Below, piece by piece: positions 10,018 to 32,733 of a stretch of 64,000 nt of DNA. A model generated the notes under the pieces. The model saw nothing but the letters and a program-made list of their open reading frames with translations, searched no databases and was not told the origin of the DNA. This stretch comes from Selenomonas ruminantium AC2024 (GTDB lineage: Bacteria; Bacillota; Negativicutes; Selenomonadales; Selenomonadaceae), in NCBI RefSeq assembly GCF_000687995.1, contig NZ_JIAC01000001.1, forward strand, positions 2,108,001-2,172,000, read 5' to 3'. Position 1 is the first letter of the stretch; every line of letters starts with the position of its first letter. The position numbers and the translations under genes are program-made.

Positions 10018-10086
10018 AAAATCCTTCCTTCAACTGATACTATACACAAGTTGTATAATTCGACCCGCGAAAGAAAAATCCTGCTT

Positions 10087-11172
10087 TTAATGTATCGCCT
10101 CTTCAATCATAGCGCCGCCCACCAGCACATCATCCTGATAGAACACCACGAACTGGCCGGGAGTTACCGCCCGCTGCGGCTCAGCAAATTCCACCCGGAG
10201 CAGACCATCTTCCTGCATGGAAAGTTTAGCCATTGCCTCACGCTTGCCGTAGCGAATCTTGGCACCAAACTCCATGCCGTCCTCGACGCCATCAATGGCA
10301 ATCCAGTTGGCGTCACTTGCCAAAAGGCCCTTGGCAAAGACCGTCTGATTGCCGCCCACGACCACTTCATTGCGCTGCATATCGAGCTTGTGCACATAGA
10401 GCGGTTCCGGTGCTGCAATGCCCAGCCCCTTGCGCTGGCCGATGGTATAAAGCGGCACGCCGTTATGCCTGCCCAACACTTTTCCTTCATCATTGACAAT
10501 ATTGCCCTTGCGCAGGCACTTGGGCCGATGTTTTTTCAAGAACGCCTTGTAATCATCATGGGGGACAAAGCAAATTTCCTGACTCTCTGCTTTATGCGCC
10601 ACCGGCAAATCCATCTTCTCCGCCAGTTCCCGCACATGCTCCTTGGTCATATCGCCCAAGGGCAGCAGGATATGCTGCAGCGATTCCTGCGGCAAACGGT
10701 GCAAGGCATAGGACTGGTCTTTATACTCGTCAAGGCCCTTCTTCACCACATAACGGCCGTTATCGAGCTGGCCAATGCGGGCGTAATGCCCCGTTGCCAA
10801 AAAGTCGGCTCCGAGTTCCTGCGCTTTTTTAAGCAGCAGGCCAAACTTCATAGACGGATTGCACATCACGCAGGGATTCGGCGTGCGCCCTTTGGCATAT
10901 TCACTCAGGAAATAGTCAATGACATTTTCCTGAAACTCCTTACGAAAATCCACCGTATGATGTTCAATGCCCAAGGCGGCTGCCACCTTCTTGGCGTCCC
11001 GCACACTGTCCGGCTCCTCACCAGCCGCCACATTTACCGTCTCACTGCGGCCTTCCTCCGTCAGCAGCATGGTAATGCCCAGCACCTGATAGCCCTGTTC
11101 CAAAAGCAACGCCGCCGTCAGGGAGCTGTCCACGCCGCCGCTCATGGCCACGGCTACTGTCTTTTTATCCAA
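10087..11172 (-). CDS. mnmA: tRNA-specific 2-thiouridylase MnmA
   Basis: Introduces sulfur at U34 of tRNAs for Lys, Glu and Gln. 361 residues. The PP-loop motif SGGVDSS is at residues 11-17, the catalytic cysteines lie in NPCVMCN and EICFVP, and the C-terminal beta-barrel carries QFVVFYQDD. The start is TTG at 11172, with AGAGGTG eight bases upstream; the upstream ATG frame stops at once. It appears monocistronic. Confidence 0.95.
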   Translation of the reverse strand: MDKKTVAVAMSGGVDSSLTAALLLEQGYQVLGITMLLTEEGRSETVNVAAGEEPDSVRDAKKVAAALGIEHHTVDFRKEFQENVIDYFLSEYAKGRTPNPCVMCNPSMKFGLLLKKAQELGADFLATGHYARIGQLDNGRYVVKKGLDEYKDQSYALHRLPQESLQHILLPLGDMTKEHVRELAEKMDLPVAHKAESQEICFVPHDDYKAFLKKHRPKCLRKGNIVNDEGKVLGRHNGVPLYTIGQRKGLGIAAPEPLYVHKLDMQRNEVVVGGNQTVFAKGLLASDANWIAIDGVEDGMEFGAKIRYGKREAMAKLSMQEDGLLRVEFAEPQRAVTPGQFVVFYQDDVLVGGAMIEEAIH

Positions 11173-13650: not shown

Positions 13651-15054
13651 ATGAATATTGATAATATTTTAGGCTTCATCATTGAGGACCAAAAAGAAAT
13701 TCCCTTTTCATATAAAGATGGAATTTTGACGCTTTTTCATAGCAACATTGCATCGTGGAAAAAAGAAAAACACAAATGTTTTTTAAACTGGAAAAATTTT
13801 AACTACGATACGTGGATAGGTGAAAAAATATTTGAAGGTATCTGTCAAGACGATAATAAAGTTCGTTTTTGTGTATCAGAAGATGCAAGTACAGATAACG
13901 GATATTACTCTTACTCAGTAAAATATGTATTAAAATATAGCGGAATGAACCATAATCAAATCAGACAGATAGAACTAACCGGAAAAGAAATTAACTATTT
14001 TTTAGAAGTAGGCTATTTTAACAAATTTTTACATAACGAAAACAGTGTGAGTGCAACTATAGATTTTACTGGCTTACATGACTTATGCAGTTATCAATGG
14101 AAAAATGTCGATATAAAGGCTTCCTATTATTTGTCTTGTGAATTAAGACATAAAAGTCTGACCCCATTAAAAGAGCAAGCAAGATTGTTGATTGAGTTCT
14201 CTACTCCACAGGATGAAATATTCACACTGCATGTATGTCATCATTTTTTGAATTTATTTCAATATCTGTCATATCGACGCGATATTGAGCTTTTTGATGC
14301 GAAAATACGAGGCGGAATAGAAAACACGAACGACTCAACAGGCTACGGTATACTACACGAAGTGAATTTATCCGAAAACTTTGCCAACGAGGCAAACAAA
14401 GAACAAGAACGTATTATAAAATTCGAAGAAATAAAAAAAGGGATAAGCAAATTAATATCAGCAATTGCAGAAGAAAGAGTATACTTAGAACATATTGTTC
14501 CATCCCTACGCGCTAGATCTACATATAAAATAGATAGAATCATTTTAAACTTTGCCGCATTCGAAAGAGAATTTCATGATATTTACGGCGTAGATTATGG
14601 TCGCTCAGAAAAGTATATAACAACAAAAAACGAAGCAATTCAACTACTCAAAAACGAAGCTAATAAACATTCCGGTGACAAAAAGAAATACTATAAAAGT
14701 TTTGCTACAACGATAACGAAAACAGACAATTCATATGAACAACGTTTAGAACATGCATTAAAAGACTGTCGCGAAGAAATGAAAATTAGTATAGCAAACA
14801 CTTATAGAAACGAAATTGAAACAAAAATTGCAGATTTTCCTAGGCGAATGAATGCCTTAAGGAATGACAGTGTTCACGCAAACTCTAATTGGCAAATTGA
14901 GCCAATTAACATCAATGATTTTTCTGTTTTAGAAGATTTAATTTATGCTATTAGGTTAAAGAATGTAGGCATTGACACACGTTCAATACAAAAATGTCTT
15001 GCCAGTTTAAGAGGATACAATCTTCCAGACGCCTTAACAATTAACAAAAAGTAA
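13651..15054 (+). CDS. ApeA-like HEPN protein (candidate anti-phage gene)
   Basis: 467 residues. The N-terminal half (about 1-220) is beta-rich and resembles ApeA N-terminal domain families. The C-terminal third is helical, with the HEPN ribonuclease motif Rx4H as RNDSVH at residues 404-409. Related proteins have been reported as abortive-infection type defence genes; here that role is inference from domain layout. The gene is far more AT-rich than its neighbours, indicating transfer. GGGAG lies ahead of the ATG. It sits between a fic remnant and an IS256-family element. Confidence 0.65.
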   Translation: MNIDNILGFIIEDQKEIPFSYKDGILTLFHSNIASWKKEKHKCFLNWKNFNYDTWIGEKIFEGICQDDNKVRFCVSEDASTDNGYYSYSVKYVLKYSGMNHNQIRQIELTGKEINYFLEVGYFNKFLHNENSVSATIDFTGLHDLCSYQWKNVDIKASYYLSCELRHKSLTPLKEQARLLIEFSTPQDEIFTLHVCHHFLNLFQYLSYRRDIELFDAKIRGGIENTNDSTGYGILHEVNLSENFANEANKEQERIIKFEEIKKGISKLISAIAEERVYLEHIVPSLRARSTYKIDRIILNFAAFEREFHDIYGVDYGRSEKYITTKNEAIQLLKNEANKHSGDKKKYYKSFATTITKTDNSYEQRLEHALKDCREEMKISIANTYRNEIETKIADFPRRMNALRNDSVHANSNWQIEPININDFSVLEDLIYAIRLKNVGIDTRSIQKCLASLRGYNLPDALTINKK

Positions 15055-15154: not shown

Positions 15155-16593
15155 GAGTGTAAAATTAAGTGTGTAAGTTACCGGTAACAAAACTTACGCA
15201 CTTTCTTTTTATCCGAAAGTGCGGTACAGTATCATCATAATGACAGAAACGGAGTACAGCACTTATGGCAAGACGAAAAAACAGAGGCAATGAAAAAGGA
15301 CAGGCTATCGCCAAACTTATCATGGAGCAATATCAACCCCAGAATAAGGAGGAAATGCAGGATGCTATAAAAGATGTATTTGGCCCCATGCTGGAAGCTA
15401 TGTTGCAGGGAGAAATGGATAACCACCTGGGCTATACATCTAACGACCACGGCAGCAAGGATACAGACAATCGCCGCAATGGCTATATCGACAAGACCGT
15501 TCGAAGCAGTTTTGGTGAAATTCCCGTCAGCGTTCCTCGCGACAGGGATGGTTCCTTTGAGCCGCAGGCTATTCCTAAACGGTCAAAGGATATTACGGGT
15601 ATTGAGGATAAAGTCTTGTCCATGTATGGACGTGGTATGAGCCAGCGTGATATATCCTCGACCATTGAAGACATTTATGGCTTCAGCCTGTCAGCGGAAA
15701 GTATCTCAAACATCACCGACCGTGTGCTAGAGGAAGCTGAAGTCTGGCAGAATCGGCCCCTCAAGCCCTTTTATCCCTTTATATTTGTAGACTGTCTTTA
15801 CGTCCCTATACGGCAGGAGTACGAGACGAAAAACTGTGCCATCTACGTAATTCTCGGCTATGATTTGGATGGTATCAAGGATATCCTAGGCTTATGGATT
15901 AGCGACACCGAAGGCAAGCATAACTGGATGCAGATTTTTGACGAAATTAAGACACGCGGTGTTGAAGACGTGGCTTTCATCAGCATGGACGGTGTTTCCG
16001 GGCTGGAAGAAGGGGCCAAAGCAATTTTTCCACAGGTGGTGGTACAACGCTGCATTGTGCACCTTATCCGCAATTCCATTAAGTACATACCCTCCAAGGA
16101 TTACAAAGGATTTACAGCCCAGCTTAAGAAGATTTATGGTGCTGTTAATCTCAAAGCGGCTATTGCCGAATTTGACCGATTTAAGGACGCTTGGAAACAT
16201 TATCCTGGAGCAGTAGCCGTATGGGAGAGAAACTGGATACATGTGGAACAGCTTTTCAATTATGGTAGTGCCGTACGCCGTGTGATGTATACTACCAACG
16301 CCATTGAGAGCGTTAATTCCAGCTTTCGCAAAGTAACGAGAAAAGGGGCCTTTCCTCATGAAAATGCTGTTCGCAAGATTCTTTATCTGCGAATTCTGGA
16401 GCTATACAAAAAATGGCAGGGGCATCCCATTATGCGGTGGTCTATGGTACGGAACCAACTAGCTATTGATGGAAAAATTCAGGAAAGAATGCTAAAGTAC
16501 GAGCAATTTTAAGCTTTTTCCCATAGAAAAGGCGGCCCTTTCGGACCGCTTTTCTTATGGCAAAAAAACTTACACACTTATCTTGACAAACTC
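15155..16593 (+). mobile_element. IS256-family insertion sequence, about 1.44 kb
   Basis: It contains one intact transposase gene. The ends share inverted repeats built around TAAGTGTGTAAGTT (15166-15179) and its complement at 16569-16582. A hairpin with arms CCATAGAAAAGGCGG and CCGCTTTTCTTATGG lies after the transposase and probably acts as a terminator. The outer limits are approximate. Confidence 0.8.
15265..16512 (+). CDS. IS256-family transposase (intact)
   Basis: 415 residues, full length for the family. Mutator-type DDE features are visible: FIFVDCLYVP (first Asp), AFISMDGVSGLEEG (second Asp), VVQRCIVHLIRNS and TTNAIESVNSSFRK (Glu region). The N-terminal helical part is MARRKNRGNEKGQAIAK. 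No frameshift is seen, so the element may be active. Confidence 0.95.
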   Translation: MARRKNRGNEKGQAIAKLIMEQYQPQNKEEMQDAIKDVFGPMLEAMLQGEMDNHLGYTSNDHGSKDTDNRRNGYIDKTVRSSFGEIPVSVPRDRDGSFEPQAIPKRSKDITGIEDKVLSMYGRGMSQRDISSTIEDIYGFSLSAESISNITDRVLEEAEVWQNRPLKPFYPFIFVDCLYVPIRQEYETKNCAIYVILGYDLDGIKDILGLWISDTEGKHNWMQIFDEIKTRGVEDVAFISMDGVSGLEEGAKAIFPQVVVQRCIVHLIRNSIKYIPSKDYKGFTAQLKKIYGAVNLKAAIAEFDRFKDAWKHYPGAVAVWERNWIHVEQLFNYGSAVRRVMYTTNAIESVNSSFRKVTRKGAFPHENAVRKILYLRILELYKKWQGHPIMRWSMVRNQLAIDGKIQERMLKYEQF

Positions 16594-16695: not shown

Positions 16696-18060
16696 TTATT
16701 CACGAATTTTTCGCAGCAGCTCATCCGTCTTCTGCTGCATCAATGCCTCATCCTGTCTTGTCTCCACATTCAAGCGAATGACCGGCTCCGTATTGGACTT
16801 ACGCAGGTTAAATCGCCAGTTATCAAATTCGACAGAAAGACCATCAACTCTGGTCACTTTACCCTGGGGGCCATATTCTGCCTCAATGCGCGCCAGCACC
16901 TCATCTGCATCCTTGACCTTGCTGTTAATTTCCCCGGAACAAGGATACATCTCCATACGTTCCTGCATCAGCTCTGACAATTGCTTGCCCTCGTCCTGAG
17001 AAAGCAGCTCCAGCACCAGCAACCAGGGAATCATACCGCTGTCACAGTAGGAGAAATCCCGGAAATAATGATGAGCACTCATCTCACCACCATAAATAGC
17101 ATTCTCAGCCCGCATCTTCTCCTTGATAAAGGCATGGCCACTCTTGGAAATCACAGGCACGCCGCCATTTGCAGTAACAATCTCCTCCGTATTCCAAGTA
17201 AGCCGCGGGTCGTAAATGATCTTCTCCCCGGCATTCTTCTGCAAGAAAGCCTTTGCCAGAAAACCTACCATATAATAACCTTCGATGAAGTTCCCTTGCT
17301 CGTCAAACATAAAGCAACGGTCAAAGTCACCGTCCCAAGCTACACCGGCGTCAGCACCAGATTCCCGAACAGCCTTGGCCGTAGCCTCCCGATTATCCGG
17401 CAGCAGTGGGTTTGGTACACCATTTGGGAAGCTGCCATCCGGCTGATGGTACACTTTCACCAATTCAAAAGGCAGGTACTTCTCCATCACATCGAGAATT
17501 GGCCCTGCTGCGCCATTACCAGCATTGACAACAACCTTCAATGGCTTTAATTTTGACATGTCAACATAGGACAATATATGCTTCACATACTCCTCTGTAA
17601 TGTCAAATTTCTCCACCTTGCCAGCCGTTTCTGCCATAGCCGGAAGTTCACCACCTGCTACCTGAGCTTCCAATTCCCTCAGCCCCGTATCACCGGAGAT
17701 AGGCTTTGCCTCCTGCCGTACAAACTTCATACCGTTGTACTCTTTCGGATTATGGCTGGCCGTAATCATAATACCGCCATCTAACTTCAAATGAGCCGTA
17801 GCAAAATAAATCATCTCCGTACCGCACTGACCGATGTCAATGACATCGCAGCCCGATTCCGTCAAGCCACGAGTCAAAGCCTTCTGCAGTCCTGGTCCCG
17901 AAAGACGGATATCATGACCAACCACAACCTTATGCGCCTTAAACAAAACCGGAAAGAACTTACCAATCCGATACGCCAGTTCCTCATTTACTTCTTCCGG
18001 CACAATACCGCGTATATCATACGCACCAAAGGCATTTACACAACAACTCAAATTATCCAC
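16696..18060 (-). CDS. manB: Phosphomannomutase/phosphoglucomutase
   Basis: Interconverts hexose 6- and 1-phosphates, feeding mannose 1-phosphate to ManC and glucose 1-phosphate to GalU. 454 residues. The phosphoserine loop TASHNP is at residues 100-105 (Ser102), the metal loop DGDFDRC follows, then the sugar loop GEMSAHHYF and the phosphate loop RKSNTEPVIRLNVE. It is the last gene of the polysaccharide cluster, 15 bp after galU. One TTGACATGTCAA palindrome lies inside it (17553-17564). Confidence 0.93.
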   Translation of the reverse strand: MDNLSCCVNAFGAYDIRGIVPEEVNEELAYRIGKFFPVLFKAHKVVVGHDIRLSGPGLQKALTRGLTESGCDVIDIGQCGTEMIYFATAHLKLDGGIMITASHNPKEYNGMKFVRQEAKPISGDTGLRELEAQVAGGELPAMAETAGKVEKFDITEEYVKHILSYVDMSKLKPLKVVVNAGNGAAGPILDVMEKYLPFELVKVYHQPDGSFPNGVPNPLLPDNREATAKAVRESGADAGVAWDGDFDRCFMFDEQGNFIEGYYMVGFLAKAFLQKNAGEKIIYDPRLTWNTEEIVTANGGVPVISKSGHAFIKEKMRAENAIYGGEMSAHHYFRDFSYCDSGMIPWLLVLELLSQDEGKQLSELMQERMEMYPCSGEINSKVKDADEVLARIEAEYGPQGKVTRVDGLSVEFDNWRFNLRKSNTEPVIRLNVETRQDEALMQQKTDELLRKIRE

Positions 18061-19080: not shown

Positions 19081-21029
<1,949 letters not shown>

Positions 21030-21291: not shown

Positions 21292-23610
21292 TTATCTGTA
21301 TCTGATTGCATTCACATTTTTCTTTACATAATCATACCTAGTCCCCTTAGATGCAAAAATGAGTGCCTTCGGCAAAACCAGCACCATACGCATAGTCTTT
21401 ACAAAGCCATATTCTTTGATATATTCCAGCAATAAGTAACGCTTATTCCATATTGCCTTACGAGTATTCCGTCCTAAAACCACTCCACTTCCCTGACTAT
21501 TTACTACAGGCATTCTATTGATCAAAATCTCATAAAAAGGTGTCTTCCTAGCTACACGCCAAAAATCAGCAGCATATTCCTCACCCAAACATTTTATTGG
21601 CAAAGTTCCCCCTGCATAATGTATAATAAAGGGATTCTTTACAGCACGGCAATAATCCAAATCCTGTTTCATTAGATGCATTAGTTCTTGTGATCTAAGC
21701 ACAAATACATCCCACTGTGGAGACAAAAATTTAACCTTCCCTACTGAAATTTTATTTAAGACATCTTGATCTTCCCACATCCATCTACGAGATACTGCTA
21801 TTTCCAAAAGTTTTTCCGAGGTATAATCAACCGTAAGCTTTTTAATATTAATTAATAACACCCCTGCGTTGAAATAGTCCTTTGGATTGGAAACTTTTAC
21901 ATTCTCTAATAAGTGTTTTTTTACACTTTCCCTAAACATCCACACAACATTGATATGACTATCTCGAATCGCACCAAACATGTAACCTTTAATATCTTCT
22001 GCATAAAGCTTAGCAATATTTTCTTTCACTACCGTATCACAATCAAGATAGATTAGTTTTTCATAAGCACCAAAAAGTTTTGGAATCAGCAATCGCATAA
22101 AAGTACCACGTGACAACTGCTCATTTGTGAAACTAAAATTCCATTTATCCAACCGATCAGCCACATCACAAAAACGTAGAGAAAAGTTATCCATACTAGA
22201 CACCATACCAAGCAACTGCATTTTATTTACCTTGCTGATATGATCTGAAAGCACAATAATATCATAATTACACTCTTTTTCAGATGTATCCAATATGGAT
22301 TGCAAGCAAACACCAACTAAAGGAGCATAGTTATTATCACTAGCCAGAACCACTACTGCATCACATCTATCAAAAGCTGGCCTAATATCTCGTCTACAAA
22401 TTGTTTTATCATATACGGAATCTAATTCTACTCTATCTTCTATTTTTCTCTGAAAGTCGATTTTATCCACTAGCATAAGAGTATTTTTTACAACTTTCTC
22501 CCATGAGTAATTATCTCTCACATAGTCTGGACCATATTGGCAACAATACTGATAAGCCCTGTTTCCACTCATAGAATCCTCCAAAGCTTGAGCAAATTCT
22601 TCATAAGAAGCATAAGCATAACCTGAACGACTCCTAACTACATGACCTTTCAATACCGGGCAAGCACTACTCACCAAAATTGGAGTATTAACCGATAATG
22701 CTTCAAGTGCAACTATAGACAAACTCTCAAATCTAGATGCTGTGGACAGAAAAAGCGCCCCCCTCATTAGTTTCATCTTTTCAACTTCATCCACAAATCC
22801 TCTGTAATCAATATCTTCTCTTTTCGGTAATACCATATCCTTTTTCCCAATTAGAACAAGTTTTAAATCAGATGGATGTTGCGTCTTGTATTTTATAAAA
22901 AAAGATACCAACTCATCACAACTCTTTGAAGCATTTATCCTTCCAGCATACAGTATATAAGGCTGTGTTACATCAACAGACTTGGGCAGGAAATCATTGC
23001 ACTCAATGCCAAAAGCTCCTACAAAGCCTGGTTTCTCCCTTATGAAAGGAAATCTTTCTTCTAAAAGATTCTTTTCCTCTTCAGTGTTAAAAATATAGCC
23101 CTTTGCAGCTAAAAATGTATACTGATAAAATGGCAATTTCAATGCCTTCTCATCATGTGCGGTAGGCATAAAAATAGCATTAGGCAAACCAAGTATACAT
23201 AAAGCACTAGTGTAATATAAATAAGTCATAAAAATGATTGCATCATACTCTGCATAATGCATATGTAGATAATCAAATAAATCGGGGGCGTATGGTCCCT
23301 GTGACATTACCCAATGTACCTCTTCTTCCATAAGATGTTCCTCACATCTTATATATCTATCAAGTTCATCATATGGCCCCCAGTCACGTTTTTGCACTAC
23401 AGGAAACCTAATTACATCTATCCCTTCTACCTTCTGCGTACCCTCCGGATAATAATTTTCCCAAGTATTATCATCTATTGCACAAGTTGTTAACACCCTT
23501 ACATCACAAAAACTCATCAATCTATGTGCCAATAAAAAGCAGAGCATTTCCGAACCACTAGCAATCTCACTGCCAAAGCGATGATTTACCAATGCAATTT
23601 TTTTTCGCAT
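21292..23610 (-). CDS. Two-domain glycosyltransferase: GT4-like plus GT8-like
   Basis: 772 residues from ATG 23610 (AAGGAG upstream). Residues about 1-370 are GT-B/GT4-like, with FGSEIASGSEMLCFLLAHRL, PYILYAGRINASKS and FESLSIVALEALSVNTPILV. Residues about 410-720 are GT8-like: DAVVVLASDNNYAPLVGVCLQS, the DxD metal motif LIYLDCDTVV, and FNAGVLLINI. Linking two transferases suggests consecutive addition of two sugars. The gene is AT-rich, as is common in polysaccharide loci. It begins just after the FkbM gene. Confidence 0.8.
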   Translation of the reverse strand: MRKKIALVNHRFGSEIASGSEMLCFLLAHRLMSFCDVRVLTTCAIDDNTWENYYPEGTQKVEGIDVIRFPVVQKRDWGPYDELDRYIRCEEHLMEEEVHWVMSQGPYAPDLFDYLHMHYAEYDAIIFMTYLYYTSALCILGLPNAIFMPTAHDEKALKLPFYQYTFLAAKGYIFNTEEEKNLLEERFPFIREKPGFVGAFGIECNDFLPKSVDVTQPYILYAGRINASKSCDELVSFFIKYKTQHPSDLKLVLIGKKDMVLPKREDIDYRGFVDEVEKMKLMRGALFLSTASRFESLSIVALEALSVNTPILVSSACPVLKGHVVRSRSGYAYASYEEFAQALEDSMSGNRAYQYCCQYGPDYVRDNYSWEKVVKNTLMLVDKIDFQRKIEDRVELDSVYDKTICRRDIRPAFDRCDAVVVLASDNNYAPLVGVCLQSILDTSEKECNYDIIVLSDHISKVNKMQLLGMVSSMDNFSLRFCDVADRLDKWNFSFTNEQLSRGTFMRLLIPKLFGAYEKLIYLDCDTVVKENIAKLYAEDIKGYMFGAIRDSHINVVWMFRESVKKHLLENVKVSNPKDYFNAGVLLINIKKLTVDYTSEKLLEIAVSRRWMWEDQDVLNKISVGKVKFLSPQWDVFVLRSQELMHLMKQDLDYCRAVKNPFIIHYAGGTLPIKCLGEEYAADFWRVARKTPFYEILINRMPVVNSQGSGVVLGRNTRKAIWNKRYLLLEYIKEYGFVKTMRMVLVLPKALIFASKGTRYDYVKKNVNAIRYR

Positions 23611-23627
23611 ACTTACACTCCTTGCAT

Positions 23628-24623
23628 TCAATCAATAAAATCCCTGCCAATATACAAATCTGGACATTCATAATCATTAGGCATATCCAACGGGTGTGGC
23701 AAATCGCCCTTATACTCATCAAACTTATAACATTCTTTATTCAAATAAGTTACTTCCAACACATCTGGTAAGAATCGTTTGCCAGCCATGACCCCAGTGC
23801 AATAATTATTTGCGTGAAGATGCACAACTTGATGTGTCTCATTTAGCTTAGTCAAACTTTTCAAGATAAGATCTACAAATCTAGGATCGTTTAAATTGTG
23901 CATTTCAATTACAATTTGGCGAAACTTCTTCAACACTCCTATATCACAAACAGCAAGAGCTTCCCATTCAAAACTTTCAATATCTATCTTGAGTATCATA
24001 TCCTTTTTTTCTACATGTTTATTTTCTACAAGTATTTCCGCCAAAGTCATAGTGGGAAATGGAAGAGTACTATCAATCCCTGCTAGTCCTACTTTGAAGA
24101 AATGAAATTTATCACTAATCATCGGCAGTTTTTCAATTGTAGGATCATACATGTAGATATCAAATCCCCGACTGACCATATCTTTATCCCAAGAAACATC
24201 ATCATTTATACCAAAGCTATAGGCAATCCCGCTATTTCCAAAATCATTTAGCATGACATAGCCACCATCATACTCGCGTCCTATTCTGCAAAAATCATAA
24301 TTTCCTTGCACTTTTTTCAATGTCAGCATCGAAAAAACTTTTTTCTGATGTCTTTCCATGCATTTATCTTTATTATATAAATTGATAGAAAGTCTCCTTA
24401 GATCCTTTTCTATTTTCTCCCCCTTGTTTCTTATAAGAAACAATTCCTCTTTGATATAATCCTGTTCGCACTGTATATCTTTTATAAAATTATGCATATT
24501 AATATGCATAGACTCCGCTTCTTCAATTTTCTTACATATTCCTTGCAGCATCTGCCTATGCTCTACTAAATCGCTTTTTATATTCCCTAGTAATCCTTCA
24601 ATATTTCTTAATAAAAACATCAT
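23628..24623 (-). CDS. FkbM-type methyltransferase with N-terminal coiled coil
   Basis: About 331 residues from ATG 24623, six bases after GGA. The first 110 residues are heptad-rich (IEEAESMHINMHNFIKDIQ and on) and probably form a coiled coil. The rest is a SAM-dependent methyltransferase: YDGGYVMLNDFG, the acidic DMILKIDIESFEWEAL and IVIEMHNL. It overlaps the end of wzt by 26 bp. Coiled coil plus methyltransferase beside a Wzt with a C-terminal domain suggests a chain-terminating enzyme that caps the polysaccharide; this is inference. Confidence 0.7.
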   Translation of the reverse strand: MMFLLRNIEGLLGNIKSDLVEHRQMLQGICKKIEEAESMHINMHNFIKDIQCEQDYIKEELFLIRNKGEKIEKDLRRLSINLYNKDKCMERHQKKVFSMLTLKKVQGNYDFCRIGREYDGGYVMLNDFGNSGIAYSFGINDDVSWDKDMVSRGFDIYMYDPTIEKLPMISDKFHFFKVGLAGIDSTLPFPTMTLAEILVENKHVEKKDMILKIDIESFEWEALAVCDIGVLKKFRQIVIEMHNLNDPRFVDLILKSLTKLNETHQVVHLHANNYCTGVMAGKRFLPDVLEVTYLNKECYKFDEYKGDLPHPLDMPNDYECPDLYIGRDFID

Positions 24624-25863
24624 TATCATTCCTTTCTATAGAAAGAACTGTTTTCATATAAACAACTCCTGCAAATTTGTATTTATCTTGATTTACCACC
24701 TTGAAAACATATGCTAAATCTTGCCACTCATAACAAGCTTCAAGATGATCCTCACCACTGTGCAGTGCAACACTTAAACTGTATGTTTCTTCTCCAAGAT
24801 TCAGATCACATGAAAACTCGAAAATAATTTTCTCGCCAGCCTGCAAATCTTTAAGTTCTTGCTTCATCAATGAACTATTTATTCCGAAAACAGATTCGCC
24901 TAATCGATTTTTTATCATAATCCCACAATTCATATTGGCCAAATCTGTCTCTGCAATTGCTTCTACTCTGATGTTAATATGCTCCCCTACTCTGAATACC
25001 GAAGCCTCATTTCTACGATCATTAAGAATTTTGACACTTTCAATCCTGGCTTTATGATTACCAAATGATGTTTTAATGTGTTCGTTATCTATTTTTTCTT
25101 GTTCAATATTCTCTGCAGATGCATCTCCTGCCAGCATTGCATTATAATACTCTATAACATCACTTGGACTCCCTTTTTTTAGCACAGAACCATGATCCAA
25201 TAAAACAGCAGTCTTGCATACTGCATTTATAGCTGCAATATCATGGGAAACCAGCAATAAAGTCGTCCCTTGAGCACAAAAGTCTTTAATCCGCCCAAAA
25301 CTTTTATGTTGAAAATATGTATCACCTACAGACAACGCCTCATCAACAATCAGGATGTCAGGACGCTTCATGGTAGCAACAGCGAAAGCCAATCTTACCT
25401 GCATACCACTTGAGTAGGTTCTGACTGGTGCATCGATGGCATTGCCAATCTCAGCAAATGCCTCTACCTGTTCCATACATTCATTTATCTCATCAATGGT
25501 ATAGCCCAACAGTTGCCCTGACATATAGACATTCTGTCTGCCGGTGAAGTCAGGATGGAACCCTAAGCCCAGTTCCAGTAGCGCGGACACCCTGCCGTTG
25601 AAGTGAACACTGCCTGTTGTGGGTACTGTGGTACCTGTGATTATTTTCAGCAGTGTAGATTTCCCCGCGCCGTTCATGCCTATAATGCCTACGGCCTCAC
25701 CAGGAGCCACTTCGATATTTACATCTTTCAGCACCCATTTTTCTTCATGCCGTTTTCTGGAGAAGGGAATGAGCCACTCCTTCAGGCGGTCATTACGGGA
25801 AGCATACATTTTGTAGCACTTGCCCACATGCTGGATGCTGATGCTGTTATTCTCTTTACTCAT
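24598..25863 (-). CDS. wzt: Polysaccharide ABC exporter, ATP-binding protein with C-terminal carbohydrate-binding domain
   Basis: 421 residues from ATG 25863, which overlaps the wzm stop as ATGA. Walker A GMNGAGKST is at residues 62-70. TYSSGMQVRLAFAVAT and ILIVDEALSVGD are typical of O-antigen/teichoic exporters. Residues about 265-421 form the extra beta-rich domain (from RIESVKILNDRRNEASVFRV) seen in Wzt proteins that recognise a modified chain end. That domain fits with the methyltransferase encoded next. Confidence 0.88.
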   Translation of the reverse strand: MSKENNSISIQHVGKCYKMYASRNDRLKEWLIPFSRKRHEEKWVLKDVNIEVAPGEAVGIIGMNGAGKSTLLKIITGTTVPTTGSVHFNGRVSALLELGLGFHPDFTGRQNVYMSGQLLGYTIDEINECMEQVEAFAEIGNAIDAPVRTYSSGMQVRLAFAVATMKRPDILIVDEALSVGDTYFQHKSFGRIKDFCAQGTTLLLVSHDIAAINAVCKTAVLLDHGSVLKKGSPSDVIEYYNAMLAGDASAENIEQEKIDNEHIKTSFGNHKARIESVKILNDRRNEASVFRVGEHINIRVEAIAETDLANMNCGIMIKNRLGESVFGINSSLMKQELKDLQAGEKIIFEFSCDLNLGEETYSLSVALHSGEDHLEACYEWQDLAYVFKVVNQDKYKFAGVVYMKTVLSIERNDNDVFIKKY

Positions 25864-26648
25864 AATTCGTCCACCAGCTCTCCTACGTGTCTTTGATACA
25901 TTTTCAGCGACCATATGCATAACAGCAAACCAAGCAGTAATACGCCTGCCAAAGCTATATAATCAACATGCTGACCATATACGAAGATATCCTGATATCC
26001 CTTCACAATGTGATACATGGGATTGAAGCCCAACAGCCATCTTAAAGATTCAGGAATGATGGTCGCAGGATAAACCACTGGGGTAAACCAAAACCAAAAT
26101 TGCGTAATTACCCCCAGCATCTGTCCCACATCACGGAAAAACACGTTGAGCACCGCCAGTCCCAGTCCCAGACCTACAGTAAAAACAGACTGAACCGCAA
26201 GTACTAAAATTACTTCCGGGATATGCAGATAAGGGAATCCCCCAATAATAATCAGGAACAGGCAAAAAAGAATAAAGCCGATAATGAAATTGGAAAACGA
26301 CGACAGCACGGTAATTGTCGGCAAGCATACCCGTGGAAAAGAAACCTTTTTCATCAGATTCGCGTTCTTGAAGAAGACATTGACAATATTCATCAAAGTT
26401 TCATTGAAGAGGTTCCACGTGAGTACACCTGCGCACAAGTAAATACTGTAGGCGAACGGAGTCCCTTCCATACCATGCAGCTTGCTTTTCATCACCTGCG
26501 AAAAGATAACCGTATAGACAAGTATCATGGCTAGTGGCTGAAAGACCGACCACAGTATGCCCAGCACTGAACCCGTATACCTCTCCTGAAATTCACGTTT
26601 TACACAACTGTATATAAATTGCCGATAATGCCAAATATTTTCTAACAT
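25860..26648 (-). CDS. wzm: Polysaccharide ABC exporter, permease
   Basis: A 262-residue ABC-2 type membrane protein with six predicted helices. REFQERYTGSVLGILWSVFQPLAMILVYTVIFS-type N-terminal features and WFWFTPVVYP near the C-terminus match Wzm/TagG permeases. It pairs with wzt (4-bp overlap) to export lipid-linked polysaccharide across the inner membrane. Confidence 0.92.
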   Translation of the reverse strand: MLENIWHYRQFIYSCVKREFQERYTGSVLGILWSVFQPLAMILVYTVIFSQVMKSKLHGMEGTPFAYSIYLCAGVLTWNLFNETLMNIVNVFFKNANLMKKVSFPRVCLPTITVLSSFSNFIIGFILFCLFLIIIGGFPYLHIPEVILVLAVQSVFTVGLGLGLAVLNVFFRDVGQMLGVITQFWFWFTPVVYPATIIPESLRWLLGFNPMYHIVKGYQDIFVYGQHVDYIALAGVLLLGLLLCIWSLKMYQRHVGELVDEL

Positions 26649-26666: not shown

Positions 26667-27749
26667 TTAATGTTTACCTAGCATTGCCTCTCTAATTCGA
26701 TATCTTATTCTTGTTTCGTATCTATAAGATATACTTCCAGCCGCAATTACCAAGACAACATACACTAAAAACCACAACTTAGTTGCAGCATTGAATGTAA
26801 ATACTCCCATCTCACCACCTGTAAAAAGTAACAACTGAACAGGAAAATGCCATAAATATATGGAATAGGAAATATCTCCCAAATAAACAAAAGGTCTAAA
26901 AGATGCTATTTTTTTCAAAAAACCTATATTAAGGACTGCCATAATCAAACAGGGGAAAAACAATACTACATATACATCTGCGTATTTAGCCCCCAAAAAC
27001 TTATGTCCAAATATCATCGCTACAATAGCTGTCAATAATGTGCTATTTAGGATAATGTATAAATAACGTTTATCCCCCCCCCGTAAACCATAATTAATTT
27101 TATAAGTAAAGCAGCCGATAAAGAATGCCAATAAAACCCTTGCTACTTCTTGATTAAACAGCGGAAGATGTGCCTGTGTTTTTTGTAGAAACAAACCTAC
27201 TAAAATCATTGAATAAAACAATACGTATTTCTTTTTAGGATAAAAATACAAAATATTAAAGAATATGATATACGCAATAAATTCTTCAGAAATTGACCAG
27301 GATGGTGCATTAAAAGAAAAACCATTTTCAAACCATCCGAAATGAAGAAAAGCTAGATTTAACAACAAATGATAGATATCATTATATGGATAAACAAAAA
27401 ATTCAAATCCTAAAAATTTACGTCCCCACTGTATTATTGCAACAACAAAAGTCGTAACTATAAATACAGGATATAATCTGCTCAACCTCAATACTAAAAA
27501 GATCTTTATGTCTATAGCTCTGGAAACTATTTTTTCTCCATACACATAGGAAAAAACGAAGCCAGACAACACAAAGAAGAAATCTACTCCTAGCCAACCA
27601 TAGTGATAAAACCAATAAGCGTATTTCTCAAACGGGTATACTTCAGGCTTAAAATGCTGATAATGCCAAAATATCGCTACACCAATAGCTGCTATTCCTC
27701 GCAGCGTATCTAGTGGCTCTAATCGCTTAACAGGATTACTCCCCAACAT
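26667..27749 (-). CDS. Acyltransferase family 3 membrane protein (OafA-like)
   Basis: 360 residues with about ten membrane segments. The family start RLEPLDTLRGIAAIGVAIFWH, the FFFVLSGFVF motif and WSISEEFIAY are clear. Such enzymes O-acetylate surface polysaccharides. The first 14 bp overlap the glycosyltransferase gene upstream. The target is presumably the glycan made by this cluster. Confidence 0.85.
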   Translation of the reverse strand: MLGSNPVKRLEPLDTLRGIAAIGVAIFWHYQHFKPEVYPFEKYAYWFYHYGWLGVDFFFVLSGFVFSYVYGEKIVSRAIDIKIFLVLRLSRLYPVFIVTTFVVAIIQWGRKFLGFEFFVYPYNDIYHLLLNLAFLHFGWFENGFSFNAPSWSISEEFIAYIIFFNILYFYPKKKYVLFYSMILVGLFLQKTQAHLPLFNQEVARVLLAFFIGCFTYKINYGLRGGDKRYLYIILNSTLLTAIVAMIFGHKFLGAKYADVYVVLFFPCLIMAVLNIGFLKKIASFRPFVYLGDISYSIYLWHFPVQLLLFTGGEMGVFTFNAATKLWFLVYVVLVIAAGSISYRYETRIRYRIREAMLGKH

Positions 27750-28821
27750 TTACCTCCTCCATTCTTTCCATTATTTTCTTTGCTGTGTTATCCCAGCTGT
27801 ATTTACGGCATTGTTCCTGCCCTTTTGCGATAAATACCTCCTTAATGGCCTCGTCTGTCGTTACTTTTATCATTGCCTCAGTGATTTCTGCCGTATTATA
27901 TGGATTTACATATAGCGCGGCATCTCCCATCACTTCCGGAAGTGATGCGGCATCGGAGGCAATAACGGGTGTTCCGTAAGACATCGCCTCCAATGGTGGC
28001 AGGCCAAAGCCCTCATAGAGCGATGGGAAGATAAACGCTGTGGCATTTTTATACAGCCCTGCTAATGTTTCATCATCTACAAAGCCGGTGAATACGCAAT
28101 TGTCTTTAAGCTCTTGTGCCGTCAATATTTCCCCGAGATTATTTATGCCTGTCAGGAATCCGTCTGCCTGTCCTACTATCAGCAGCTTTAGGGGTGTATC
28201 TGTCTGTTTTCTATAAGCAGTATAGGCCTCCAGCAACCGGACAATATTTTTATGTGGCTTGACATTGCCTACACAGAGCAGATAGGGATAGTCCGTTTTA
28301 AACTGCTTAGGAGTATCTATTTTGGTTATGCCGTTGTATATCACATCTATAGCTGCCTTGGGGTTGACGAATTTCTCTATTTCCCTGCGGCTGAAGTCAG
28401 ACACTGTTATGATTTGGTCATAGCGGCTTCCCACTGCTTTCAACATGACCTTGGCATAAAGCCGTTTTAAAGCGCTAAATTCGTCCGTTAAAGCCAGATG
28501 ACAGACATCATGAATCGTGACCATCTTTTTTCTGGCCTTTAACGGCAACAACGGTGCATCATAGTGCATAGCCCAAAACAGGTCACATTCTGGAATAATC
28601 CTTGGCAGTTCCAGCTGTGCCTGCAGGCTGTACATCTTCGCAACGGAGTAGACCAGTTCAGCCCTGCCCTGACATTTTTTTTGAAATTCTGCGTTGGGAT
28701 TTACCGGCATAATCAAGGTGAATTTATGCTCTTTATAGTCCAGTAATCTTGAAACTATCTCCCTTATGCACCGGCCAATCCCTGAGCAGCTTTCGTAGCG
28801 GCAGTCTATTGTGATATGCAA
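27736..28821 (-). CDS. Glycosyltransferase family 4 protein
   Basis: 361 residues. GT-B fold with YRLLEAYTAYRK-type helices, YLLCVGNVKPHKNI (donor-domain start) and the EX7E region FPSLYEGFGLPPLEAM. It most resembles mannosyl/rhamnosyltransferases of O-antigen loci. The start is probably TTG at 28821 with GGAG eight bases upstream; an in-frame TTG at 28845 would overlap the previous gene. The gap to the upstream gene is 4 bp. Confidence 0.82.
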   Translation of the reverse strand: MHITIDCRYESCSGIGRCIREIVSRLLDYKEHKFTLIMPVNPNAEFQKKCQGRAELVYSVAKMYSLQAQLELPRIIPECDLFWAMHYDAPLLPLKARKKMVTIHDVCHLALTDEFSALKRLYAKVMLKAVGSRYDQIITVSDFSRREIEKFVNPKAAIDVIYNGITKIDTPKQFKTDYPYLLCVGNVKPHKNIVRLLEAYTAYRKQTDTPLKLLIVGQADGFLTGINNLGEILTAQELKDNCVFTGFVDDETLAGLYKNATAFIFPSLYEGFGLPPLEAMSYGTPVIASDAASLPEVMGDAALYVNPYNTAEITEAMIKVTTDEAIKEVFIAKGQEQCRKYSWDNTAKKIMERMEEVNVGE

Positions 28822-28825
28822 GGTT

Positions 28826-29920
28826 TTATCTCCATTTATCCACAAAATCTTTCAGGCTTTGCCGGAATACCTCCGGCGAAAAACGCTCGGCATTCTCGCG
28901 GCATTTTGCCGGAGTGCAGTTTCTATGCTCGAACTCCTTAACAGCTTTTTTTATTGCCTCTTTCGTCTGTTCGGAAAAGAACATGCCTGTTTCGTCGGTA
29001 ATGGTTTCCGTGGCTCCGCCGCTGCCGTAAGCAATAACCGGCGTTCCACAGGCCTGTGCCTCCACTGGCGTAATGCCGAAGTCCTCTTCGGCTGCAAAGA
29101 CAAAGGCTTTGGCATGCTGCATTTTTTCTTTGAGGACTTCCGTTGGCTGGTACCCCATGAGTTCTATGTTGTTTTTGGCAATGGCTTTTATATTTTCATA
29201 TTCCGGGCCGTCGCCAATGACTACCAGCTTTTTGTCCGGCATTTCGTTGAATGCTTCTACAATGAGTTTCACACGTTTATAGGGCACTAACCTTGAAGCG
29301 GTCAGGTAGTAATCCTGCTTTTCTTCGCAGCAGGTGAAGTTTTCAATATCCACTGGTGGATAGACAACCTCGGCTTCCCGGCCATAGACTTTTTTTATAC
29401 GTCTGGCAATGAATTTTGAGTTGGCGATAAAGCCGTCTACACCATTTGCCGTGCGCGTATCCCAAATACGTATGTAATGCAGGATTAGCCGTGCCAGCCA
29501 GCTTTTGAGCCCGTGCGTTAGGCCTGCTTCACGCAGATATTGATGCGTCAAATCCCAGGCGTAGCGTATCGGGGAATGTACGTAGGCAATGTGTACCTGA
29601 TTCGGCCCTGTGATTACACCTTTGGCTACAGCATGGGAACTGGAGATTATGAGGTCATAGCCGGATACATCCAGCTGCTCTATGGCCAGCGGCATTAAGG
29701 GCAGGTAGCTGCGATAATGTTTTCTTGCACCGGGCATGTTCTGAATGAAGGTCTTTTTCGGTATCTTGCCTTGCAGGAAAGCCCTGTCTTTTTCCGGCAG
29801 GAAATCGACTACGGCAAAGACATCCGCCTGGGGGTATATCTTTAAGATTTCCCCGATAACCCGTTCTGCTCCGGCATAGGTGACGAGCCAGTCACAGACT
29901 AAAGCTACTTTAAAACTCAA
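28826..29920 (-). CDS. Glycosyltransferase family 4 protein, mannosyltransferase-like
   Basis: 364 residues. GT-B features: VALVCDWLVTYAGAERV at the N-terminus, ISSSHAVAKGV, YYLTASRLVPYKRV, and the EX7E region FAAEEDFGITPVEAQACGTPVIAYGSGG. The N-terminal pattern is typical of WbaZ/WbpZ-like mannosyl or rhamnosyl transferases. Start TTG at 29920, preceded by GAGG and overlapping the manC stop by 11 bp. Confidence 0.82.
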   Translation of the reverse strand: MSFKVALVCDWLVTYAGAERVIGEILKIYPQADVFAVVDFLPEKDRAFLQGKIPKKTFIQNMPGARKHYRSYLPLMPLAIEQLDVSGYDLIISSSHAVAKGVITGPNQVHIAYVHSPIRYAWDLTHQYLREAGLTHGLKSWLARLILHYIRIWDTRTANGVDGFIANSKFIARRIKKVYGREAEVVYPPVDIENFTCCEEKQDYYLTASRLVPYKRVKLIVEAFNEMPDKKLVVIGDGPEYENIKAIAKNNIELMGYQPTEVLKEKMQHAKAFVFAAEEDFGITPVEAQACGTPVIAYGSGGATETITDETGMFFSEQTKEAIKKAVKEFEHRNCTPAKCRENAERFSPEVFRQSLKDFVDKWR

Positions 29921-31274
29921 CTAAATCATCCTCGCCTAAGTAGGTACCGTTGCGGATTTCGATTATTTCGAGGGGAATACGCCCTGGATTGGATAGTTCA
30001 TATCTTGTGGTCTGCGGAATAAATACTGATTCGTTTTCATGAATCATCTTTACATCCGTTTCCTGCTTGACCTCAGCTGTACCGGACAGCACGATGAAAT
30101 GTTCCGTACGGTGATAATGCATTCTCTGGGGCAGGGCTTTGCCCGGCATAATACGCAGCTTGCGCATGACATAGTTTTTGCCTTTCCCCATAGCGGAAGA
30201 CGTGCCCCAGTAGTAGTACAGGGTGGTGTGTTCCGTCGCTTCCTTGCGGTGGTTCTTTTTGAGTGTTTCCACTACATCCTTGACCTTTTGGGAGTTGCCC
30301 TTCTTGGTCGCTACGATAACGTCATCTGATTCGACCAAAAGCAAGTCATCTATGCCAATACCAGCGAGCAGACGGTCATGACCGATAAGCAGGGAATCCT
30401 TGCAGTCGATGGTTATACAGTCGCCTTTTACGGCGTTGCCTGCTTCGTCTTTTTCCAAGATGTCATACATGGCATCCCAGGAGCCGATATCGTTCCAGTA
30501 ACAGGAAAGTGGCACCATCCGTACTTTCTGACTGTTTTCGGCTACAGCGTAGTCAATGGAGATGGATGGCATCTTGGCAAAAGTATCGTGGACTTCACTA
30601 TAGGATTTGCCTTCCATCAGGCCGGATATTGCTGGCTGATAAGCAGCCAGCTCTTCCATAATGCAGCCAATCGTAAAGGCGAACATGCCGGAGTTCCAAT
30701 AGTAGTTACCTGCCTCTAAGTACGCTTGTGCTGTTTCAAGATTTGGTTTTTCCTTGAAGGACTGCACCGCGTAGCTGCCGCCATTTTCTGTGCCTGCTTC
30801 AATATAACCGTAGCCGGTTTCCGGACTGCGCGGCTTTATGCCTAACGTCACAAAACTTCCACCCTTAGCGGTTTGGGCTGCCTCTTTTATGCAGGCCGAG
30901 AAAGCATCCTGCTGGCGTATTACATGGTCGGCTGCGGCAATGATGAGCACTTCATCCTCAGCGCATCCCAGTTCGCTTTCGCAGTACTTAGCTGCCAGGG
31001 CAATAGCCGGTGCGGTGTTTTTAGCTACCGGTTCCAGTACAATATGGGCACTGCTGGCATGGCAGAGTTCCAATTCGTTCTGCACATGGTAGAGATAGCT
31101 TTCGTTGGTAACCAAAACGATGTCTTCAGCTGGTACCAGTTTCAAGAAACGTTCTACCGTATGCACCAGCAGAGATTTATCGTCCTCCAGTGCCAAGAAC
31201 TGTTTGGGATAAGACTTACGAGAAAGCGGAAATAACCGCGACCCGCCGCCACCGGCAAGAATGACAACCTTCAT
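29910..31274 (-). CDS. manC: Mannose-1-phosphate guanylyltransferase/mannose-6-phosphate isomerase
   Basis: 454 residues, bifunctional type II enzyme. The N-terminal GDP-mannose pyrophosphorylase carries GGGGSRLFPLSRKSYPKQFL and the C-terminal cupin isomerase carries MRKLRIMPGKALPQRMHYHR. It supplies GDP-mannose for Gmd/Rmd and for mannosyl transfer. It follows the initiating transferase by 28 bp. Confidence 0.94.
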   Translation of the reverse strand: MKVVILAGGGGSRLFPLSRKSYPKQFLALEDDKSLLVHTVERFLKLVPAEDIVLVTNESYLYHVQNELELCHASSAHIVLEPVAKNTAPAIALAAKYCESELGCAEDEVLIIAAADHVIRQQDAFSACIKEAAQTAKGGSFVTLGIKPRSPETGYGYIEAGTENGGSYAVQSFKEKPNLETAQAYLEAGNYYWNSGMFAFTIGCIMEELAAYQPAISGLMEGKSYSEVHDTFAKMPSISIDYAVAENSQKVRMVPLSCYWNDIGSWDAMYDILEKDEAGNAVKGDCITIDCKDSLLIGHDRLLAGIGIDDLLLVESDDVIVATKKGNSQKVKDVVETLKKNHRKEATEHTTLYYYWGTSSAMGKGKNYVMRKLRIMPGKALPQRMHYHRTEHFIVLSGTAEVKQETDVKMIHENESVFIPQTTRYELSNPGRIPLEIIEIRNGTYLGEDDLVEF

Positions 31275-31302: not shown

Positions 31303-32733
31303 TTAATAGGCACCGCGCTTTTCCAGCACAGCCTTAAAAGTCTTGACCAAATATTTCATGTCCAGCCATACACTCCAATTGCGGACATACCATGTGTCCA
31401 TCTCAACCCGCTCTTCGTAGGTGGTGTCGCTGCGTCCGCTGGTCTGCCACATACCGGTTATGCCGGGGCGAACCATGTAGTATTCCCGAATATTGTCCCC
31501 GTACTTGCAAACTTCCCCCTGCACTATGGGGCGTGGGCCGACAAGGCTCATCTCACCTTTTAGCACATTAAATACCTGTGGCAGTTCGTCCAAGCTTGTC
31601 CGGCGCAGGAATGCGCCCAGTCTGGTAACTCTGGGGTCATGGGTTAGTTTGAAGTTTTCTGCCCATTCCTTTTGGGCAGCTGGATTTTCAGCCAGGTATT
31701 TTTTTAAGGCCTCGTCGGCATTGGATACCATAGTCTGGAATTTATAACAGTCAAATTCTTTGCCATTCCGTCCCACACGCCGATGAGCAAAGAAGATTCT
31801 ACCTTTATTGTCTATCCCGACCAATATGGCCAGCAGGATAAAAAACGGAGATATCAGAATACAGCCGAAGAATGTTACTACCATATCAAAGACGAACTTG
31901 GTCGCCCGGTTGCTCCAACGAGACAGATTGTTCTTGCTCTTGATAATGGTCAGCTGTTCGACGAATAATGTGCTGATTTCCACACTGCCTAGCGGGGTTC
32001 CCACAAGACTGGGCGTAAACAAGATGGTATCGGTTAAATGCTGGACAGATACCAGTAATTTACGCATTTCTTCTTCCGACAGGCCTGGCGCGGCGATTAC
32101 TATGGTGCGTACGCCTTGTTCTTTTATGACCTTATCCGCATCAGCAAAACCGCCCAGCAACGGATATTCTTGCGGCAATTTGCTGGATACAGGATGGTCA
32201 TCCAACAGGCCGATAACCTCATAGCCATAACAAGGGTCATCCTCAAAGGCTCCTAAAAGGCGCTCTGCTGTTCGCCCCGCACCAATCAGCAGAATTTTTT
32301 CCTGCAGGCAATGCAGGCGCAGGACAAACTGTCCGAGCATGAACCTAGCAATAGCAATGTAAAGCAAGCTGAACAACAAGAAACATCCGGCATAGTATCT
32401 GGACACCTGCAGGCGATTACGCATCAGGAAGATAACCAGCATATACATAAGGAAACCGTAACAGGCTCCTTTGAATACATCCCTGGTTACATCTAGTGAT
32501 GGCCGATTGAATCGATAACCATCGGATAAGAACATTACCAACAGAAACAATGCTGGATAATAGATATACTGATATTCCCAAGGCATAACCATTACACGGC
32601 TGGCATCCAACCGAAACATCCCTTGAAGCCATAAAGCCGTATGCTCTGCTGCCACAATAGCCAGGTAATCTACCAGCAAGTGCAAACACACGATAATTTG
32701 CCTGCTTGTTCCGATATGTATTCCTTGTTTCAT
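31303..32733 (-). CDS. Undecaprenyl-phosphate sugar phosphotransferase (WbaP-like)
   Basis: Starts glycan chains by moving a sugar phosphate to undecaprenyl phosphate. 476 residues: four or five N-terminal helices, a central Rossmann-like CoA-binding-type domain (ILLIGAGRTAERLLGAF), a further helix, and the C-terminal catalytic part with FFAHRRVGRNGKEFDCYKFQTM, LRRTSLDELPQVFNVLKGEMSLVGPRP and RPGITGMWQTSGRS. The start overlaps the small RHH gene by 4 bp. It is probably galactose or glucose specific, which sequence alone does not settle. Confidence 0.9.
   Translation of the reverse strand: MKQGIHIGTSRQIIVCLHLLVDYLAIVAAEHTALWLQGMFRLDASRVMVMPWEYQYIYYPALFLLVMFLSDGYRFNRPSLDVTRDVFKGACYGFLMYMLVIFLMRNRLQVSRYYAGCFLLFSLLYIAIARFMLGQFVLRLHCLQEKILLIGAGRTAERLLGAFEDDPCYGYEVIGLLDDHPVSSKLPQEYPLLGGFADADKVIKEQGVRTIVIAAPGLSEEEMRKLLVSVQHLTDTILFTPSLVGTPLGSVEISTLFVEQLTIIKSKNNLSRWSNRATKFVFDMVVTFFGCILISPFFILLAILVGIDNKGRIFFAHRRVGRNGKEFDCYKFQTMVSNADEALKKYLAENPAAQKEWAENFKLTHDPRVTRLGAFLRRTSLDELPQVFNVLKGEMSLVGPRPIVQGEVCKYGDNIREYYMVRPGITGMWQTSGRSDTTYEERVEMDTWYVRNWSVWLDMKYLVKTFKAVLEKRGAY

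Follow-up and report, generated by a model that had tools for sequence, protein, structure and literature searches.

Chain termination is the point at which the control of O-antigen length and the licensing of export meet, and the locus described here raises the question of whether a methyltransferase encoded directly behind wzt ends a glycan chain and thereby presents it to the transporter. The locus is one glycan cluster, all on the minus strand, in a window of 64,000 nucleotides of Selenomonas ruminantium AC2024 (NZ_JIAC01000001.1), the window being the whole stretch of DNA analysed. In cluster order, genes for a WbaP-type initiator, a manC-like protein, two GT4 glycosyltransferases and an acyltransferase are followed by wzm, wzt and the methyltransferase gene, and then by a GT4-GT8 fusion, gmd, rmd, a galU-like nucleotidyl transferase and a manB-like mutase. 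All 13 cluster proteins were scanned against Pfam, and a single methyltransferase was found among them.

31303..32733, minus strand: WbaP-type initiating sugar-phosphate transferase (TIGR03022 443.3 bits, cut-off 403)
29910..31274, minus strand: manC-like, nucleotidyl transferase with mannose-6-phosphate isomerase C-terminal domain
28826..29920, minus strand: GT4 glycosyltransferase (closest solved relative 2f9f, 'first mannosyl transferase (wbaZ-1)')
27736..28845, minus strand: GT4 glycosyltransferase (Pfam)
26667..27749, minus strand: acyltransferase gene, between the GT4 gene and wzm
25860..26648, minus strand: Wzm, membrane subunit of the ABC transporter (Pfam)
24598..25863, minus strand: Wzt, ABC ATPase with predicted C-terminal cap-binding domain (homologue of Aquifex aeolicus Wzt)
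24655..25071, minus strand: Wzt_C domain (PF14524) within Wzt (120.4 bits, cut-off 30.4)
24598..24623, minus strand: overlap of the wzt end and the methyltransferase start, 26 bp
23628..24623, minus strand: candidate terminator, coiled coil and FkbM/Methyltransf_22-like methyltransferase, 331 aa from ATG 24623
24339..24623, minus strand: N-terminal heptad region of the methyltransferase, predicted helical (heptad score, AlphaFold2)
23628..24338, minus strand: catalytic class I methyltransferase domain, residues 98-333 of the 333-aa reading (Pfam, AlphaFold2, alignment)
21292..23631, minus strand: GT4 and GT8 glycosyltransferase fusion, overlapping the methyltransferase stop (Pfam)
20010..20999, minus strand: gmd, GDP-mannose 4,6-dehydratase (TIGR01472 420.6 bits, cut-off 415)
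19081..20013, minus strand: rmd-like (closest solved relative 2pk3, GDP-6-deoxy-D-lyxo-4-hexulose reductase, E 4.3e-62)
16696..18060, minus strand: manB-like phosphomannomutase/phosphoglucomutase

As expected of a D-rhamnan cluster, gmd and rmd are both present, a pair that would provide GDP-D-rhamnose, and wzt, read from ATG 25863, overlaps the stop of wzm. LpxC and two Wzy_C proteins encoded in the genome make an LPS O antigen plausible, although the Wzy_C proteins add little to this, since 9 of 14 control genomes, some of them Gram-positive, have them as well. A Mutator-family transposase (PF00872, 341 bits) at 15265-16512 adjoins the manB end of the cluster, and a 467-aa ORF at 13651-15054 has a sub-threshold match to an Apea-like HEPN domain (20.9 bits, cut-off 24.4). 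Elsewhere in the same genome (L091, C1:1774000-1793500) wzm and wzt occur a second time, accompanied by a methyltransferase with heptads at its end (10038-10910), and the WbaP of that locus is 94% identical to that of the window.

The methyltransferase frame has its stop at 23628, and its first ATG, at 24629, would give 333 aa, while the ATG at 24623 gives 331 aa. An AAGGA motif lies 6 bases ahead of ATG 24623, a better spacing than to ATG 24629, which makes the former the best start and results in a 26-bp overlap with wzt, whose stop is at 24598, as had been proposed in the initial annotation. The same annotation had called the protein FkbM-type, and this holds in a broad sense only, since the protein scores above the Pfam cut-offs of PF05050 Methyltransf_21/FkbM (25.9 bits, cut-off 22.7) and PF13383 Methyltransf_22 (25.1 bits, cut-off 22.4) but below that of NCBIfam fkbM_fam (TIGR01444; 21.6 against 37.7 bits).

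The structure prediction that had been suggested for the methyltransferase was run with AlphaFold2, and the whole-protein model contains a Rossmann methyltransferase domain with a block pLDDT of 74-97 over residues 91-270. Foldseek returned 4 matches at E≤0.001, and the best fold comparison (VIA Z 10.9 over 170 residues, rmsd 4.1) was with 5zq0, with ties below; assignment to a subfamily by fold search was rejected, as the matches indicate the general Rossmann methyltransferase fold only. WbdD is not among the fold matches listed, which excludes nothing. A phmmer search of PDB chains gave 0 matches at E≤1, and the presence of a solved WbdD structure among those chains was deduced from PMC3482155. 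In an alignment with 24 relatives (L028 and one divergent L035 ORF being left out), 49 columns reach at least 90% conservation among the relatives, and the protein keeps 47 of these, the exceptions being G219S and I327; position 219 is Gly in 24 of 24 relatives and Ser in AC2024. The enzyme might be inactive and act as a coiled-coil scaffold, which the Ser at position 219 and its long end branch (1.94) in the methyltransferase tree would fit, but the retention of the other conserved columns and the predicted Rossmann fold make this very improbable.

Ahead of the methyltransferase domain, which is conserved from about residue 98 to 329, heptads extend over residues 3-101. They cover 91 of the first 97 residues, a coverage equalled by 0 of 1000 shuffles on a home-made score, and the best heptad window was equalled by 2 of 1000; among 486 other proteins of at least 250 aa from the fetched loci, 20 match the best window and 23 match the coverage. 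Residues 1-111 alone were predicted by AlphaFold2 from the single sequence as one helix over 2-108 with a mean pLDDT of 91.8, a kind of prediction that readily gives a helix for a heptad peptide and is silent on its oligomer state. These results bear out the roughly 110 residues of N-terminal heptads described initially. In the whole-protein model, the N-terminal part consists of four helices of low confidence. An amphipathic anchor in the first 18 residues received no support, the moment of 0.38 being equalled by 1325 of 10000 shuffles and not significant. In the related locus L030, a 134-aa ORF behind the methyltransferase (L030:9091-9495) carries an amphipathic motif that recurs in the N-terminal parts of coil and Methyltransf_23 proteins of L137 and L139 and is also common to a stretch of L152; this ORF had no tblastn match in the AC2024 window.

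In the proposed scheme the cap would be read by Wzt. The extra C-terminal domain noted initially is a clear Wzt_C match, and over its full length Wzt is homologous to the A. aeolicus protein (8dku, E 4.9e-94), whose cap-binding domain (CBD) binds 3-O-methyl-D-mannose and not D-mannose (PMC9445017). At the published site the methyl group is held between L300, T346, A348 and W362, the sugar is held by N313, H350 and the backbone of I299, I299, M353 and D354 act via their backbone, and Y233 contacts a second sugar (PMC9445017). Of the 12 contact residues named in that paper, seven are identical in the Selenomonas Wzt (I299, N313, A348, H350, D354, H355 and W362), two are conservative changes (L300M, T346S) and three are changed (M353E, V380A, Y233N); in Selenomonas numbering, I315, N329, A366, H368, H373 and W380 match I299, N313, A348, H350, H355 and W362. 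The quintet N313/A348/H350/H355/W362 is complete in 5 of the 53 Wzts that were aligned out of 56 (L092, L108 and L111 being left out), namely those of the AC2024 window, L030, L072, L131 and L132, with domain identities to Aquifex of 32-36%. These five proteins share 25 invariant positions out of 165, and six of eight cap-site residues fall among them (hypergeometric 1.6e-4), or 6 of 11 when all CBD contacts are counted (1.9e-3), values to be read with the knowledge that the proteins had been collected on similarity and that the quintet was chosen later. A second pocket class, found in L133, L153, L154 and L155, has Y299, M300, N313, S346, A348, V or T at 350, H355 and W362. The residue pattern supports the assignment of Wzt as a predicted cap-reading type with the key residues of the solved 3-O-methyl-sugar site. 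A C-terminal domain lacking a glycan pocket had been named as an observation that would speak against the proposal; at the level of sequence, the key residues of such a pocket are kept. A 3-O specificity of the methylation may be read from the Wzt pocket only.

Relatives of the methyltransferase domain were found in 12 of the 150 genomes searched, its own included, and 9 of 11 loci from named genomes belong to Synergistota. The genome of AC2024 itself has a second copy, of 282 aa and without heptads, in another glycosylation island. Across the 27 ORFs with this domain (AC2024 included, as well as L027, whose N-terminal part is absent from the ORF call, and L028, cut by a contig end), the N-terminal parts vary freely, and the heptad threshold of 1.3 is passed by two, AC2024 (1.68) and L030 (1.69), the next two reaching 1.27. 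No ORF other than these two was seen beside wzt (Fisher 0.0028; the rows are not independent, and several of the stretches are short). The relatives lie mainly in other glycosylation islands, so the family has other roles too. A single origin of the coil-methyltransferase pair of AC2024 and L030 gained no support from a poorly resolved tree (2 changes; 3 of 23 inner branches starred), which does not group the two.

The distribution of relatives bears on whether the methyltransferase instead decorates internal repeats, the Wzt domain reading something else, such as the terminal sugar or an unmodified end. That 25 of the 27 ORFs were not seen beside wzt, some on short contigs, would suit internal decoration, as would the three differing cap contacts and the acyltransferase and GT8-containing protein of the cluster, which could also modify the chain. 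We consider internal decoration unlikely, given that Wzt retains A348 and W362 of the methyl pocket as well as N313 and H350, which contact the sugar, that heptads and adjacency to wzt co-occur, and that the slot behind wzt holds heptad-bearing methyltransferases of unrelated families in AC2024, L030, L072 and L131.

The gene directly behind wzt was tabulated in 55 loci, the AC2024 window excluded: 14 have a methyltransferase with heptads (at least 28 residues), five a methyltransferase without heptads, four heptads without a methyltransferase and 32 neither, the next gene being missing or on the other strand in eight of the 32; the counts lean towards the types found, because the domain models were built from proteins already picked. 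The class search likewise draws G000, G072 and G047 strongly by construction, since they made the model, whereas G577, G677 and G660, and G784, G772, G785 and G811, were first drawn by models built without them. In L030 the slot holds an N-terminal coil and a Methyltransf_22-like domain, the same type as in the window, and in L072 and L131 heptads followed by an unrelated Methyltransf_23 domain. L132 has a glycosyltransferase behind wzt although its quintet is present, and a Methyltransf_23 protein with heptads lies 9.1 kb off in the same direction (L139 12605-13834). In L133, L153, L154 and L155, which have the Wzt of the second pocket class, a classical FkbM domain precedes a C-terminal coil. 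All five quintet clusters have gmd and/or rmd: both are present in the AC2024 window, L030 and L131, rmd (40%) in L132 and gmd (90%, L140) in G047 (L072, L140), with no rmd in the fetched stretches of G047. The acyltransferase gene is absent from the corresponding place in L030, and a similar gene (52%) is found elsewhere in the G047 cluster (L140 1279-2511). As an observation apart, a gene of about 540-630 aa, identified in L078 as a methyl-accepting chemotaxis protein, is followed there by one for a Wzt-like ABC ATPase that carries Wzt_C; L080, L093-L097, L099-L102 and L104-L107, of genus g13 in the same family or of others, share this arrangement by position alone, and the stretches fetched for these loci contained no Wzm-like ORF.

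The transporter is closely related between some of these clusters. L030 and AC2024 are 87% identical in the Wzt NBD, 38% in the CBD and 46% in the methyltransferase domain, and for L072 the values are 81% in the NBD, 49% in the CBD and 66% in Wzm. Per 30 residues, the identity of the AC2024 and L030 Wzts is 80-96% over residues 1-210 and then 63, 43, 30, 63, 16, 56 and 13%; a sharp recombination breakpoint between NBD and CBD was rejected, as identity falls over some 30-60 residues with no clean break. A divergent CBD and methyltransferase beside a conserved NBD would be expected if the reader and the writer of the cap change together, and could alternatively result from a general relaxation of that part.

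Taken together, we think it quite probable that the locus encodes a terminator, a methyltransferase with a coiled coil, that works together with an ABC exporter able to read the cap. A D-rhamnose-containing glycan, possibly of D-rhamnose and D-mannose, would be grown on a lipid carrier by the cluster glycosyltransferases, and the methyltransferase would sit at the end of an N-terminal helical rod of about 16 nm (107 residues of about 0.15 nm each, assuming an uninterrupted coiled coil). When the chain has reached sufficient length, its non-reducing end would be methylated, most likely at O-3, and growth would stop; the Wzt C-terminal domain would then bind the methylated terminal sugar and the chain would be admitted to Wzm/Wzt. 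Were the N-terminus located at the membrane or the polymerase, the N-terminal coil would still keep catalysis distal. We infer in this scheme the methyl position, the ruler role of the coil, the D-rhamnan composition and the dependence of export on the cap, as well as membrane anchoring and chain-length control; a 3-O-methyl D-rhamnose or D-mannose cap is its specific, testable prediction. Several observations count against a terminator: the glycosyltransferase in the L132 slot, the short heptads of L072, the near-threshold relatives at 1.27, Y233 to Asn, G219 to Ser, the non-significant N-terminal amphipathicity, the lack of an rmd found in G047 and the location of the methyltransferase-domain relatives mainly in other glycosylation islands.

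The methyltransferase could also cap the chain while the coil serves for oligomerisation or glycosyltransferase recruitment and is no ruler, length being set by enzyme stoichiometry. The heptad cover does vary, from about 100 residues in AC2024 to 75 in L030 (within 26-108) and 30, also N-terminal, in L072 (19-48), but in E. coli O9 and K. pneumoniae O12 the coil has an established ruler function, and in WbdD the size distribution depends in part on coil length (PMC11231755), so that we regard a coil without a ruler role as possible but doubtful.

Beyond a terminator in this window, we lean towards the view that the termination of ABC-exported glycans has drawn on FkbM-superfamily methyltransferases in two designs of opposite polarity, an N-terminal coil with a Methyltransf_22-like domain (AC2024, L030) and a classical FkbM domain with a C-terminal coil (L133, L153, L154, L155), and that the slot behind wzt is a modular socket for interchangeable, unrelated methyltransferases, the 3-O-methyl pocket of Wzt being retained. 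Were this so, conservation would rest with the coil and the cap-reader, the methyltransferase being the replaceable component, and terminators should thus be findable by the socket, a coil and methyltransferase beside a Wzt with a CBD, and not by WbdD homology. In a literature search short of most subscription journals and all preprints, no paper with both 'FkbM' and 'Wzt' was found, nor one with all of 'FkbM', 'coiled-coil' and 'polysaccharide'; this does not show the idea to be unpublished.

Coiled-coil terminators with several chemistries have been published (PMC11231755, PMC3482155). Like WbdD of E. coli O8/O9a and Klebsiella O5/O3, the AC2024 protein is a long-coil methyltransferase paired with a CBD-bearing Wzt, and in the WbdD systems a methyl (or methylphosphate) end halts growth and licenses export (PMC3482155, PMC11231755). 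Unlike in WbdD, the coil is N-terminal to the catalytic domain and not C-terminal, and the protein lacks a PDB sequence match by which WbdD homology would be recognised; it has no kinase domain, which O9a WbdD has and O8 WbdD does not. The WbdD-like logic with an unrelated methyltransferase that was proposed initially is in part supported by comparison, as regards the Wzt pocket and the overlapping coil methyltransferase, and it gains from L072, where a related transporter has an unrelated heptad-bearing methyltransferase in the same slot, but the polarity is opposite to that of WbdD.

With A. aeolicus Wzm/Wzt (3-O-methyl D-Man/D-Rha cap), the full-length Wzt homology and the cap-site residues are shared, and its D-rhamnose-containing glycan has a counterpart in the gmd and rmd genes of the AC2024 cluster, although Y233, M353 and V380 are replaced; the enzyme that adds the A. 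aeolicus cap is unnamed in the main text of PMC9445017, where 'methyltransferase' occurs 0 times. Klebsiella pneumoniae O7 ORF6 and O4 ORF7 are likewise terminator proteins with a characteristic coil (PMC11231755), but the former has a methyltransferase-kinase with GT modules behind the coil and the latter is a Kdo transferase. WsaE of the Geobacillus stearothermophilus S-layer glycan contains a methyltransferase domain proposed to cap a Wzm/Wzt-exported rhamnan, and wzm, wzt and wsaE overlap as the AC2024 genes do (PMC2943079), but WsaE is fused to two rhamnosyltransferases and concerns 2-O-methyl-L-rhamnose on an S-layer glycoprotein. The principle of a coiled-coil terminator with a cap-reading Wzt is thus known, and the methyltransferase described here is of a different family from those studied.
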